Assembly (NCBI GenBank): GCA_012800355.1
Contig: JAAZJL010000067.1
Location: forward strand, 1 to 37,731
DNA: 37,731 nucleotides
Reading direction: 5' to 3'
DNA from: Erysipelotrichia bacterium
GTDB lineage: Bacteria > Bacillota_I > Bacilli_A > Erysipelotrichales > Erysipelotrichaceae
Shown: positions 9,871 through 16,027 of the stretch, piece after piece
Numbering within the stretch: position 1 is the first letter of the stretch
How the letters are laid out: every line of letters starts with the position of its first letter
The notes under the pieces: model-generated
What the model saw: the letters and a program-made list of their open reading frames with translations, nothing else
Told to the model about the DNA's origin: nothing
Databases searched by the model: none
Made by a program: the position numbers and the translations under genes

Positions 9871-9898
9871 AAATAAAAAGCGCCACCAAAGGACGCTT
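9871..9898 (-). terminator. T-box intrinsic terminator upstream of valS
   Basis: Minus strand AAGCGTCC-TTTGG-TGGCGCTT followed by TTTATTTT. Confidence 0.75.
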
Positions 9899-10074
9899 AA
9901 CGTGGTACCACCTTATTTACTTCTCAAATACTTTAACGCAGTAATACGGAATTAACTACTTAATTTCATCAATTCAGCTCAAAGTCGACCTTCATTTGTA
10001 AACCTTATACTTTTCCACCAAACAAGTATTCTCTATAAATAGTAATACAAACTACTCCTACTTATCTTCGCTAT
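9871..10074 (-). ncRNA. T-box leader riboswitch of valS (tRNA-Val, probable GUC specifier at 9987..9989)
   Basis: T-box sequence AAGGTGGTACCACG (minus strand, 9901..9914), Stem I distal element GTTTGGTGGAAA, specifier region AAGGTCGACTTTGAGCTG, and the terminator above. Confidence 0.93.
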
Positions 10075-10076
10075 CT

Positions 10077-10105
10077 TTGATTATAAAAGAAAGATAGAAT
10101 AAAAT
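10077..10105 (+). promoter_or_regulatory. sigma-A type promoter of the CPBP protease gene
   Basis: TTGATT (10077..10082) - 17 nt - TAAAAT (10100..10105). Confidence 0.5.
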
Positions 10106-10893: not shown

Positions 10894-10919
10894 AAAAAAA
10901 GTAGCCTAAGCTACTTTTT
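10894..10919. terminator. bidirectional terminator between the CPBP gene and lon
   Basis: AAAAAGTAGC-CTAA-GCTACTTTTT hairpin. Confidence 0.8.
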
Positions 10920-13245
10920 ATGCGTTTATTGTATGTTTTAAGACATCTTCCATTGTTTTAACTGGAATGAAATTAATATTCTCTTTTACTTCATCATCAA
11001 TCTCATCTAAATCCTTCAAGTTATTTTCTGGAAGAATAATATTATGGATATTACTTCTATAAGCAGCCATTGTTTTTTCTCTTAGACCACCAATTGGTAA
11101 TATATTGCCTCTTAATGTCATCTCACCAGTCATTGCAACATCGTTACTGATAGGTTTATTTGTCAATGATGAAATTATAGCTGTAGTTAAAGTTATACCA
11201 GCAGAAGGACCATCTTTTGGTACTGCTCCTTCAGGAACGTGAATTTGCATATCATTTTTTTCGAAGAAATCTTTTTCTATACCAAGTTTATCAGCATTAG
11301 CTTTAACATAACCATATGCTATGGTGGCACTTTCCTTCATTACATCACCAAGATTACCAGTAACAACTAAATTACCCTTACCATGATATGAAGTAACTTC
11401 TATTGGAAGAATATCACCACCAAATTGTGTATATGCTAAACCTGTAGCAATACCAACTTGTGATTTACTTTCTTTTTTACCAAAATCATAAATCTCTTTA
11501 CCTAGCCAAGTGTTGATAATTTTCTTAGAAACCTTAACAGACTTTCTTTCACCCTTGGAGATTGATAGAACTGTTTTTCTACATAATGAAGCAATAGTTC
11601 TTTCCAACTGTCTTACTCCAGCTTCTCTAGTATAAAATCTAATTAAATAAATAATTTCTTCTTTTCCTAATTTAAATTGAGCTTTAGTTAAACTGTTAGC
11701 TTCAAGCTGTTTAGGTATTAAATGATTTCTTGCAATATGGTATTTTTCCTCTTCTGTGTAAGAAGACATTTCAATAACCTCTAATCTATCCCTTAATGCA
11801 GCTGGAATAGTTGTAATATTATTGGCAGTAGCAATAAACATTACTTTGCTTAAGTCATATGGTTCTTCCAAATAGTTATCAGAGAACATTGTATTTTGTT
11901 CAGGGTCTAAAACTTCAAGCATGGCACTTGCTGGATCACCTTTATAATCCATTCCCATCTTATCTAATTCGTCAATTAAGAAAACTGGGTTGATTGTGCC
12001 TGCTCTTTTCATTCCTTGGATAATTCTTCCTGGCATAGAACCTAAATATGTCCTTCTATGTCCTCTAATTTCTGCTTCATCTCTAATACCACCTAAGGAA
12101 ATTTTGACAAATCTTCTATTAAGAGCTCGAGCAATTGATTTACCAAGTGAAGTCTTACCAACTCCTGGTGGACCATATAAACATAATATTGGAGCTTTTA
12201 AACTGCCAGTCATATTTTTAACTGCAATATATTCTAAAATTCTTTCCTTAACTTTCTTTATACCATAATGGTCTTCATCTAAAATTCTAGCGATATCGTT
12301 AATATCTTCGTTATCTTCACTCTCTTGCCAGAAAGGTACTTTTTGTAACCAATCTAAATAGTTTCTAATAACACTTGCTTCTGATGAGATTGCAGGCATC
12401 ATTTCATAACGAGCAATTTCCTCAGCAGCTTTTTCTTTGATGTTTTCTGGATAAGGATTATTGTTGAAATAATCTATTAATGAATCACCATCAGATCCTT
12501 TAACAATTCCTTCACCTAATTCTTCTTTAATTGCTTTTAATCTTTCTCGTAAGTAATATTCTCTTTGATTTTCGTCAATGGAATCTTTAATTTTTTCAGA
12601 AATTTTGTCATCAATCTCTTTAATTTGTTTATTATATTCAAACTGTTTAAGTAATAGTAATAATCTCTCATTGACATCTATTGTTTCTAACATTTCTTGC
12701 CTTGTTGCTAAAGGCATAGGTAAATACTGACCAAATTGATCAGCTACAGCTGATGCTGGGATACCCGAAGCAAATTGTGCCATCATTTCTTTTGGTAAAG
12801 ACTTGATATTTGATGCGAAACTTTCAAATTCAGCCATTACTTTTTGAATTAAAACCAATTGTTGTTGGGCATCAGAATTAATATCATCTTCAACACTAAT
12901 ATTAGCTATAAAGACATTACCATTAAAAGTAATCGTATTAGCTCTAGCTCTTGCTAAGCCTTTAAACTTAATCTTATAAGCTCCTCTATCTTTCCTTATA
13001 TTCTCAATATGACATAAAGTTCCATATCTATACATATCTTCACTGGTAGGATTGTCAATCAAAATATCTTTTTGACTAACAAGCCATAGCAAAGAATCTG
13101 AATTTGTTTGAGCTAATTTAAAAGCTTTAATACTTATTTCTCTTCCCACATCAATAACAACTTCTTGATTAGGAAAAATTACGACACCTCTAGTACATAT
13201 AACTGGATAATCTACGTTTTGGTAGATATCTGCATAAATACTCAT
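10918..13245 (-). CDS. lon: ATP-dependent Lon protease
   Basis: N-terminal LON domain, GPPGVGKTSLGKSIARAL Walker A, catalytic PKDGPSAGITLTTA with downstream Lys (GGLREK). Confidence 0.98.
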   Translation of the reverse strand: MSIYADIYQNVDYPVICTRGVVIFPNQEVVIDVGREISIKAFKLAQTNSDSLLWLVSQKDILIDNPTSEDMYRYGTLCHIENIRKDRGAYKIKFKGLARARANTITFNGNVFIANISVEDDINSDAQQQLVLIQKVMAEFESFASNIKSLPKEMMAQFASGIPASAVADQFGQYLPMPLATRQEMLETIDVNERLLLLLKQFEYNKQIKEIDDKISEKIKDSIDENQREYYLRERLKAIKEELGEGIVKGSDGDSLIDYFNNNPYPENIKEKAAEEIARYEMMPAISSEASVIRNYLDWLQKVPFWQESEDNEDINDIARILDEDHYGIKKVKERILEYIAVKNMTGSLKAPILCLYGPPGVGKTSLGKSIARALNRRFVKISLGGIRDEAEIRGHRRTYLGSMPGRIIQGMKRAGTINPVFLIDELDKMGMDYKGDPASAMLEVLDPEQNTMFSDNYLEEPYDLSKVMFIATANNITTIPAALRDRLEVIEMSSYTEEEKYHIARNHLIPKQLEANSLTKAQFKLGKEEIIYLIRFYTREAGVRQLERTIASLCRKTVLSISKGERKSVKVSKKIINTWLGKEIYDFGKKESKSQVGIATGLAYTQFGGDILPIEVTSYHGKGNLVVTGNLGDVMKESATIAYGYVKANADKLGIEKDFFEKNDMQIHVPEGAVPKDGPSAGITLTTAIISSLTNKPISNDVAMTGEMTLRGNILPIGGLREKTMAAYRSNIHNIILPENNLKDLDEIDDEVKENINFIPVKTMEDVLKHTINA

Positions 13246-13277: not shown

Positions 13278-14555
13278 TTATTCAGCTTTATTACCTTTTA
13301 ATGCTTCTAATGTCTTTTTCATCTTTACATCTTCAGCTAAATATTCAGCAGGAATATACTGTTTAATTTGTTCAACTTCCATCTGATATTGTTCAGACAT
13401 AGTCTTGTATTCTTCTTCTAATTCTTCTTGAGATACTGAAATACCTAAATCAGTTCCGATCGCTTCTAATACTAATCTAACTTTAACTTTCTTTTCAGCT
13501 TCATCTCTTAAGTTTAGTTTAAAATCTTCTTGATTTGTTCCAGTAATTTGGAAATACATATCAATTGAAATTCCTTGTGCTTGTAATCTTTGAACATATT
13601 GATTGTAAGTATCTTCAACTTCTGAATCAATCATCGCTGTTGGAATTTCAACTTCACAAGCCTCACAAATATCATCCAATAAAGTATTGGTTGCTTCTTC
13701 TTGAGCTTCTTTAAGTTTTCTTTCTCTAATATCATTTCTGATATGTTTTTCTAATTCATCAATAGTTTTTACATTTTCAATTTCTAATTCTTCAACAAAT
13801 TCATCATCAAGTTTTGGTAACTTTTTAACTTTAATACCTTCTACTTTTACTTTGAATATTGCTGGTTTTCCAGCTACATCAGCTGCATATTCTTTAGGAA
13901 AAGTAACTTCGATATCTTTTTCTTCTCCCGTTACCATTCCAATTATTTGTTCTTCAAAACCTGGAATAAAAGAGCCCGAACCAATTTCTAATGGATATTC
14001 TGTTCCTTTTCCACCTTCAAATGCTTCACCGTCAATAAATCCTTCAAAATCAATTACTGCGATATCGCCATTTTCAACTTTCCCTTCTTCTTTTAAAACT
14101 TCAATAGAATTGCTTTGTTGTAATTTAGCGATTTCTTCTTCAACCATTTTTTTAGTAACTGTTACTTTAGCAGGTTTGTATTCAACAGCTTTATAATCTT
14201 TAAGTTTAACTTCAGGATATACTGTTAATAAAAACTTTAGTGTTACTTCATCAGAAGTCATTGATTGAACATCTAATGCTGGTCTAGCTACTAATTTAAT
14301 ATCTTTATATTCATTTAATCCAAACTCTAGAGCTTCTTGGGCAATTAAATCAACTGCATCATACCAAATAGATTGTTCATTAACTACCTGTCTAACTTTA
14401 GCTTCGGGAGCTTTACCTTTTCTAAAGCCTGGAATTTCAATATCATTTTTAATTTTGTTATAGGCTTTCTTTTGCGCTTGTTGCCACTTTTCTCCTGTTA
14501 CTGTAACTAATAACTCAGCGCTACTATTTTCTTTTAATTCATATACTGCTTTCAT
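13278..14555 (-). CDS. tig: trigger factor chaperone
   Basis: Ribosome-binding motif GFRKGKAPEAKVRQV, FKBP-like PPIase middle domain, 425 aa. Confidence 0.97.
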   Translation of the reverse strand: MKAVYELKENSSAELLVTVTGEKWQQAQKKAYNKIKNDIEIPGFRKGKAPEAKVRQVVNEQSIWYDAVDLIAQEALEFGLNEYKDIKLVARPALDVQSMTSDEVTLKFLLTVYPEVKLKDYKAVEYKPAKVTVTKKMVEEEIAKLQQSNSIEVLKEEGKVENGDIAVIDFEGFIDGEAFEGGKGTEYPLEIGSGSFIPGFEEQIIGMVTGEEKDIEVTFPKEYAADVAGKPAIFKVKVEGIKVKKLPKLDDEFVEELEIENVKTIDELEKHIRNDIRERKLKEAQEEATNTLLDDICEACEVEIPTAMIDSEVEDTYNQYVQRLQAQGISIDMYFQITGTNQEDFKLNLRDEAEKKVKVRLVLEAIGTDLGISVSQEELEEEYKTMSEQYQMEVEQIKQYIPAEYLAEDVKMKKTLEALKGNKAE

Positions 14556-14581: not shown

Positions 14582-14610
14582 ATTATATAAATTTTACCAA
14601 CTTATTTCAA
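14582..14610 (-). promoter_or_regulatory. internal promoter for tig
   Basis: Minus strand TTGAAA (14610..14605) - 17 nt - TATAAT (14587..14582), ending 27 nt upstream of the tig ATG. Confidence 0.6.
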
Positions 14611-15327
14611 CTAAAAGGTAAAATCCTTCAACATTTTTTCATCTATTTGATGTTTTTCAAAAAATAATTCTAAACCTTCTTCATCTTGATACGCTTTATA
14701 TACGTAAGCAACTATACTATAAGTAATTTGATTTATTTCTTCATCTTTAATCAAAAATGGGTAAGAATCATAAATAACGTTAATTAATACCATTTGACAT
14801 TGTTGCAAAAAAGAAGGATTACTTTCAATAATCTGCTCTAGTTTTTTACTAATCACACCAAAGTTTTTTTGTGCTAATGGTGAAGGTATTTGAGAAGGAA
14901 TAATTGAATATACTTGATTATCAATTGTAAAATTAATAATATTACTTATTTGTTGAATTTGTAATTGTTCTATTAATAATGATTTAAGTACTCTATTAAC
15001 AGAATTATCAACTAATAAATCTTTTATCACCTCTAGATAGTTTCTAATATTGGCCATTGATAATGTTTCTAAAGCTTTATAAGCTTTCTTATTACCAAGT
15101 TTTAAACATTGATAAACTTCTTCTGGTGAAAGTAATTCACTTTTCTTTTCATCAGATAAGTTAAATTTACATATATCATGTAATTGTTGCAACTTCATCA
15201 GTACATCTTGTGGTACATAAGGCATCGATAGTTCTTCTTCAATTAGCTTATTTGCACTAACAAAATCATTACTTTCAATTAACTTTTCAATGTGATTCAC
15301 AATAGTCTGATAATAATTGATAGTCAT
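14611..15327 (-). CDS. hypothetical cytoplasmic protein (listed ORF extends to 15360; start trimmed to MTINYY)
   Basis: Long helical ORF; GAGAGGTAAG Shine-Dalgarno upstream of ATG at 15327; possibly DUF3196-like but not verified. Confidence 0.75.
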   Translation of the reverse strand: MTINYYQTIVNHIEKLIESNDFVSANKLIEEELSMPYVPQDVLMKLQQLHDICKFNLSDEKKSELLSPEEVYQCLKLGNKKAYKALETLSMANIRNYLEVIKDLLVDNSVNRVLKSLLIEQLQIQQISNIINFTIDNQVYSIIPSQIPSPLAQKNFGVISKKLEQIIESNPSFLQQCQMVLINVIYDSYPFLIKDEEINQITYSIVAYVYKAYQDEEGLELFFEKHQIDEKMLKDFTF

Positions 15328-15346: not shown

Positions 15347-15374
15347 ATTATACACTGCAAATTAGCACTGTCAA
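15347..15374 (-). promoter_or_regulatory. sigma-A promoter upstream of the hypothetical-tig-lon cluster
   Basis: Minus strand TTGACA (15374..15369) - 16 nt - TATAAT (15352..15347). Confidence 0.75.
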
Positions 15375-15388
15375 GGTCTGTCTGCTAA
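15362..15388. promoter_or_regulatory. CIRCE-like HrcA operator candidate
   Basis: TTAGCACTG-N9-GTCTGCTAA compared with CIRCE consensus TTAGCACTC-N9-GAGTGCTAA: 15 of 18 positions match with exact 9-N9-9 spacing; overlaps the -35 above. Confidence 0.6.
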
Positions 15389-15394
15389 TTGTGG

Positions 15395-15422
15395 TTGACT
15401 TATTTAAAAAATACTTTATATT
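15395..15422 (+). promoter_or_regulatory. promoter of the DUF4230 gene
   Basis: TTGACT (15395..15400) - 16 nt - TATATT (15417..15422). Confidence 0.5.
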
Positions 15423-15436
15423 TATATTAGGTGATG

Positions 15437-16027
15437 AATATGAAAAAAGTAATTATTGGTTTAGTTTTAGCGCTATTATTTGTTTCATTAGGAGTTTTCT
15501 CAACTGTTACATATATAAATAACAAAGAAGGAAACACCAGTATTGATATAGCTGTTATTGAGGAAAAAGTTAATTCGATTGCTGAACTTTCAACAGTCGA
15601 ATATTATTACACTACTCTAGCTAAATATGAAAATTATAAAGATTTCTATGGCTGGAAAATTCCGTTAACAACAACAAAGTTTTTCATTACTTATGATGGA
15701 ATAATTAAAGCAGGAATTGATTTATCTAAAGTAAAAATCTCAGTAGTTGGTAAAACTGTACTAATTGAAATACCTAAAGCCACAGTTTTATCTCATGAAG
15801 TAAAATACGATACAATGCAAATTATTGATGAAACTTATTCGATCTTTAATCGCATTACAATTACTGACTATAATAATTTCATGTTAAATGAAGCTAAAAC
15901 AATGGTAACTAAAGCTGCTAATGATGGTTTATTTCAAAAAGCACAACAAAATGCAATCAGGATTATTCAAGATTTAGTTGAACCATTAATACCAGAAAAT
16001 TATGATTACTCAATTAGATTTAGATAA
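15437..16027 (+). CDS. DUF4230-like membrane-anchored protein (listed ORF starts at 15431; ATG at 15437 has better spacing to AGGTGAT)
   Basis: N-terminal TM anchor, VNSIAELSTVEYYYTTLAKYEN...IEIPKATVLSHEV...AQQNAIRIIQDLVEP pattern typical of DUF4230. Confidence 0.75.
   Translation, partial: NMKKVIIGLVLALLFVSLGVFSTVTYINNKEGNTSIDIAVIEEKVNSIAELSTVEYYYTTLAKYENYKDFYGWKIPLTTTKFFITYDGIIKAGIDLSKVKISVVGKTVLIEIPKATVLSHEVKYDTMQIIDETYSIFNRITITDYNNFMLNEAKTMVTKAANDGLFQKAQQNAIRIIQDLVEPLIPENYDYSIRFR

Follow-up and report, generated by a model that had tools for sequence, protein, structure and literature searches.

HrcA and its operator CIRCE control the chaperone genes of Firmicutes, namely hrcA-grpE-dnaK-dnaJ and groE. 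In mollicutes the operator is also found at a protease gene. M. pneumoniae has a CIRCE before lon (MPN332), which is served by the tig promoter as well (PMC7737663), and a CIRCE also precedes lon in M. gallisepticum and S. melliferum (PMC4245973, PMC5138195), as an earlier note on the present DNA had stated for some mollicutes. The DUF3196 gene has another placement in this group: in M. genitalium, MG_237 shares its transcript with the fur operon (PMC6968530), and the M. gallisepticum DUF3196 gene belongs to the fur operon (PMC9229473).

The DNA analysed here, called the window, is a stretch of 37,731 nt that forms contig C18 of a genome assembly of 99 contigs and 80.7% completeness. Under the standard bacterial code, the genes of this genome are open. 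Its minus strand carries an array of three genes: DUF3196 (14611..15327, 238 aa), tig, encoding trigger factor (13278..14555; Trigger_N, FKBP_C and Trigger_C above cut-off), and lon, encoding the ATP-dependent protease (10918..13245; LON_substr_bdg, AAA and Lon_C above cut-off). The gaps are 55 nt between DUF3196 and tig and 32 nt between tig and lon. No terminator was found between the three genes on their strand; the sole terminator-like hairpin, with a 10-bp stem and a T tail, lies at the end of lon (10896..10919, minus strand). The first gene had been described as unknown, but it belongs to a known family, being a homologue of M. genitalium MG237 and M. pneumoniae MPN330 (PF11428, 50.7 bits; cut-off 28.2). 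Its ATG at 15327 is preceded by an SD-like GAGAGG, which counts against a longer frame with a TTG start.

Upstream of this array, positions 15362-15388 hold the 27-mer TTAGCACTGTCAAGGTCTGTCTGCTAA, laid out 9-N9-9 as TTAGCACTG-N9-GTCTGCTAA. With its spacer the plus strand reads TTAGCACTG-TCAAGGTCT-GTCTGCTAA and the minus strand TTAGCAGACAGACCTTGACAGTGCTAA, then tttgcagtgTATAAT; toward DUF3196, the inverted repeat is TTAGCAGAC-N9-CAGTGCTAA. Against the CIRCE consensus applied (TTAGCACTC-N9-GAGTGCTAA, an inverted repeat with a spacing of exactly 9), it matches at 15/18 positions, the mismatches being positions 9, 20 and 21. In the arms, the outer six bp are paired and the inner three are not, so that the layout, score and pairing given in the earlier note are all exact. 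No other match with ≤3 mismatches occurs in the window, and none appeared in 100 dinucleotide shuffles of it. Taken with the evidence below, this sequence is very likely an HrcA operator. According to a study of Mollicutes, functional CIRCEs carry at most two mutations (PMC5138195), and with three mismatches the operator falls outside the ≤2-mismatch rule for M. gallisepticum (PMC4245973, PMC5138195); a reduced affinity is thus possible. The mismatch at position 9 is common to the hsp20 and hrcA sites of the same genome.

The operator overlaps a sigma-A consensus promoter, P1 (TTGACA-N16-TATAAT, 15347..15374, minus strand, 12/12), whose −35 (15374-15369), already noted as overlapped, sits within the CIRCE, and whose −10 (15352-15347) follows after a 16-nt spacer. 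Transcription from P1 would run toward DUF3196, tig and lon, so that the operator contains the −35 of a promoter ahead of protein-quality-control genes. Promoter-consensus matches are weak evidence by themselves, 25 being found versus 29.9 in shuffles, and the promoter argument therefore rests on conservation. The GTGCTAA part of the operator lies in the P1 spacer and the TTAGCA part upstream of the −35; since both are outside the promoter hexamers, neither is explained by sigma-factor constraint.

The earlier note had proposed looking for hrcA in the genome, comparing the site with the organism's own heat-shock operators and following it in relatives. The repressor gene is present (C24:7396-8046; 159.8 bits against a cut-off of 22.2, E 6e-47) and has a CIRCE ahead of it; a further weak HrcA-like match on C80 scores 21.2 bits, below the cut-off. 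Scanning the genome at ≤3 mismatches gave six CIRCE sites, versus 0 for a reversed control. Five of the six precede heat-shock or protease genes: two lie before hsp20, one before hrcA-grpE and one between dnaJ and clpB, and the fifth is the window site. The remaining match (C75:76312), inside a YebC-like coding sequence, was treated as probable chance. A second, more degenerate copy stands at hrcA-grpE. The window site resembles the hsp20 and hrcA operators down to the embedded TTGACAGTGCTAA, in which the hrcA site and one of the hsp20 sites also end; the operator/−35 composite is thus the local style. In this genome CIRCEs occur as tandem pairs 44-47 nt apart at hrcA (C24:7007, 7051) and hsp20 (C21:4674, 4721), one member containing the −35 and the other lying downstream of the −10, whereas the window has a single site.

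Congeners extend this regulon. A CIRCE of the form TTAGCACTC-N9-GACTGCTAA stands immediately ahead of an htpG-like (Hsp90) gene in G001 (C12:13615), G002 (C31:17956), G003 (C30:35672), G004 (C78:27477) and G005 (C51:8756) (L173, L175, L178, L183). The gene was read in four of the five loci; for G002 it was deduced from the motif match. Within the window's genus, HrcA seems to have Hsp90 among its targets; in the window's own genome, a contig end truncates htpG. One congener, G005, also has a CIRCE before groES-groEL (L184), whereas the window genome's groEL (C33:218-1717, L172) has none in the ~1.4 kb upstream and no adjoining groES. All CIRCE targets in the genome and its congeners, chance matches aside, serve protein quality control. 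The locus thus resembles the Firmicutes HrcA/CIRCE regulon in repressor family and operator, with classical targets in the same genome; it differs in that DUF3196-tig-lon is added here, and htpG in congeners, and in that one arm of the window site is degenerate.

To follow the site in relatives, 60 genomes including the window's own were searched, of which 55 have a DUF3196 protein; the close relatives are, by name, Erysipelotrichia or Erysipelotrichaceae MAGs. Among 40 relatives fetched, DUF3196 is almost invariably followed by tig and lon, the exceptions being a 1.1-kb gap in G008 and a DUF3196 match too weak for the local search in G035. A CIRCE with embedded TTGACA stands ahead of DUF3196 in all six congeners and, in the sister lineage and beyond the genus, in G029 and L167/L168. 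Its distance from the DUF3196 start is −57 to −67 in the congeners and sister lineage. P1 is 12/12 in the congeners, with TATAAT at a 16-nt spacer from the embedded −35; G029 is the same, and L167/L168 have a spacer of 17 nt. DUF3196 identity falls to 34% within the genus, yet the position of the operator and its embedded −35 are kept, and in distant congeners no upstream likeness is visible beyond operator and promoter. With hrcA present and the site conserved, two of the three conditions that the earlier note had named as fatal to its reading do not apply.

Conservation is less even within the operator itself, and this bears on the best-surviving alternative, that the site is a decaying relic in which ancestral control of P1 through CIRCE is on its way out in this species, the left arm having eroded and the right arm being kept mainly for the −35. 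Relative to the genus form, the left arm is altered at positions 7-9 in the window genome (G000) and in G004, and in part in G006, and has CTT there in G001 and G005; this arm reads TTAGCAGAC, the weaker form, in the first two, TTAGCACAC in G006 and TTAGCACTT in G001 and G005. A relic would also fit the alternative supply of tig and lon from a second promoter, described below, and the 23 of 55 related arrays that lack a site. However, no congener has a change in GTGCTAA or in the left arm's outer TTAGCA, which is outside the promoter hexamers, and G000 and G004 share the whole 27-mer unchanged amid variable flanks. TTAGCA is invariant across the 12 before-DUF3196 and 16 before-tig sites counted. 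Other sites, those of G010, G025 and two genomes of family f2, also have arms in which only TTAGCA is intact, so such arms may be tolerated. We therefore regard decay as unlikely.

Far less probable is that a regulator other than HrcA binds the inverted repeat, or that the repeat acts on the divergent DUF4230 gene (15437..16027, plus strand; PF14014, 96.3 bits). The intergenic region is indeed divergent and has a promoter-like sequence facing that gene (15395-15422, 10/12), which lies beside the CIRCE and not inside it. The motif, however, is that of the genome's own hrcA, hsp20 and clpB sites. CtsR was not detected, by a search that also missed B. subtilis and is weak evidence for that reason. 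DUF4230 diverges from DUF3196 in most congeners but not all: it was not found at the locus in G002, G003 and G029, and in G005 it lies far from the CIRCE, while the spacing between CIRCE and DUF3196 is kept. Because its presence and spacing vary, DUF4230 was rejected as the main target of the operator and is probably not part of the unit. Chance resemblance to CIRCE is negligible, since all congeners keep the position, the arms and the embedded −35, even though a first-order Markov simulation predicts ~0.45 matches (≤3 mismatches) per 1.48-Mb genome and one match (L008) does fall in coding sequence.

We thus consider it highly probable that 15362-15388 is a genuine CIRCE of the organism's own HrcA, with P1 blocked when the operator is bound, the array raised under folding stress, and tig and lon supplied basally by a second promoter, P2. 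The sequence itself shows the operator, the embedded promoter, their conservation, hrcA, the rest of the regulon, P2 and the array; that HrcA binds and represses, that heat induces and that transcription from P1 extends into tig-lon is inferred. Bound HrcA would cover the P1 −35 and block transcription into DUF3196-tig-lon; protein-folding stress would inactivate HrcA, P1 would fire and the whole array would rise. P2 (TTGAAA-N17-TATAAT, 14582..14610, minus strand, 11/12) lies at the end of DUF3196, from 14610 to 14582, ahead of tig and without a CIRCE, and may act independently of HrcA. The result would be dual control, P1 providing DUF3196 and extra trigger factor and Lon under stress and P2 their basal supply.

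P2 is likewise 11/12 in G001, G004, G005 and G006, four of the six congeners, and 10/12 in G029 and L167/L168; G002 and G003 lack it or have a weak version. Retention of this CIRCE-free promoter suggests that tig and lon are probably under partial HrcA control. The proposal in the earlier note of one HrcA unit for all three genes therefore stands as to the adjacent array and its single terminator-like hairpin after lon, but is qualified by P2. HrcA control of DUF3196 is likely, as is partial control of tig and lon. With P2 supplying the latter two without HrcA, DUF3196 would be the gene most tightly tied to the repressor; it is probably the one most directly controlled, tig and lon only in part.

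The position of the operator differs across relatives. Of 163 upstream regions at the 55 related loci, 31 have a CIRCE with ≤3 mismatches, against 0 for a reversed-pattern control, and the best matches are bimodally distributed, with ≥6 mismatches in all other regions. The site lies before DUF3196 in 13 of the 55 loci (12 plus G025, placed there manually since the script had set its start codon wrongly). It precedes tig in 16 and lon in three, and the array has none in the other 23. CIRCE-free arrays include G007, G012, G018 and G027, and a whole subclade of family f1 lacks the site. As hrcA was found in 58/60 genomes, a missing site in the array does not equal a missing regulator. On a Lon+Tig tree made by a quick method with SH-aLRT support only, the before-DUF3196 state requires three changes in all, gains or losses, at least two of them by starred branches. 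The groups with this state are a clade of ten that includes the window's genus, G010 with G025, and G023.

The before-tig relatives (part of f1 and most of f2) have the same array, and those of f1 carry the composite TTAGCACTC-N9-CAGTGCTAA with embedded TTGACA. Their operator, in contrast, lies downstream of DUF3196, which is thus excluded, and CIRCE control of DUF3196 would therefore be lineage-specific. The before-lon class includes a Mycoplasmoides-like genome, G304, in which the DUF3196-tig-lon order is kept as in the window. M. pneumoniae is similar in having an HrcA operator in the array, with lon supplied by a CIRCE element and another promoter (PMC7737663), but the CIRCE lies between tig and lon there and upstream of DUF3196 here. 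M. genitalium differs further, MG_237 going with the fur operon and having no CIRCE ahead of it (PMC6968530); together with the fur operon membership in M. gallisepticum (PMC9229473), this again indicates that placement under HrcA is lineage-specific. With the operator of a single repressor at three places along a conserved row of genes, the system offers a compact case for studying regulon rewiring. Searches of an open-access library gave no previous description of a CIRCE ahead of DUF3196-tig-lon. The site is a new addition to a known type of regulon, with an informative relocation of the operator.

What HrcA control would mean for DUF3196 depends on the protein. A structure has been solved for the family, for which we know of no function, and the open-access library searched has almost nothing on DUF3196, MPN330 or MG237. 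Membership is given both by the PF11428 profile, above its curated cut-off, and by the predicted fold. The AlphaFold model, built on nine aligned sequences, has a mean pLDDT of 88.6, and its only significant match in the PDB is 1td6, the MG237 homologue (E 4e-5, TM 0.49/0.42), to which phmmer similarity is weak (E 0.012). Matches of the model to TPR and 14-3-3 folds all had E > 0.3 and were rejected as not significant and no evidence of function. The operator places DUF3196 in the heat-shock regulon of a lineage whose other clearly placed CIRCEs all stand ahead of a chaperone gene or the chaperone-repressor operon. From this company and from synteny, a role as proteostasis factor is plausible. 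More tentatively, DUF3196 could be an unrecognised, mainly helical protein-quality-control partner of trigger factor and/or Lon (for example an adaptor or co-chaperone), kept beside tig-lon across the order and in some Mollicutes and brought under HrcA in several lineages by CIRCE relocation. The gene, which also occurs in near-minimal mycoplasma genomes, thereby gains a testable function. Elsewhere on the minus strand of the window, a T-box leader (RF00230, 116 bits) lies ahead of valS at 9886-10077.
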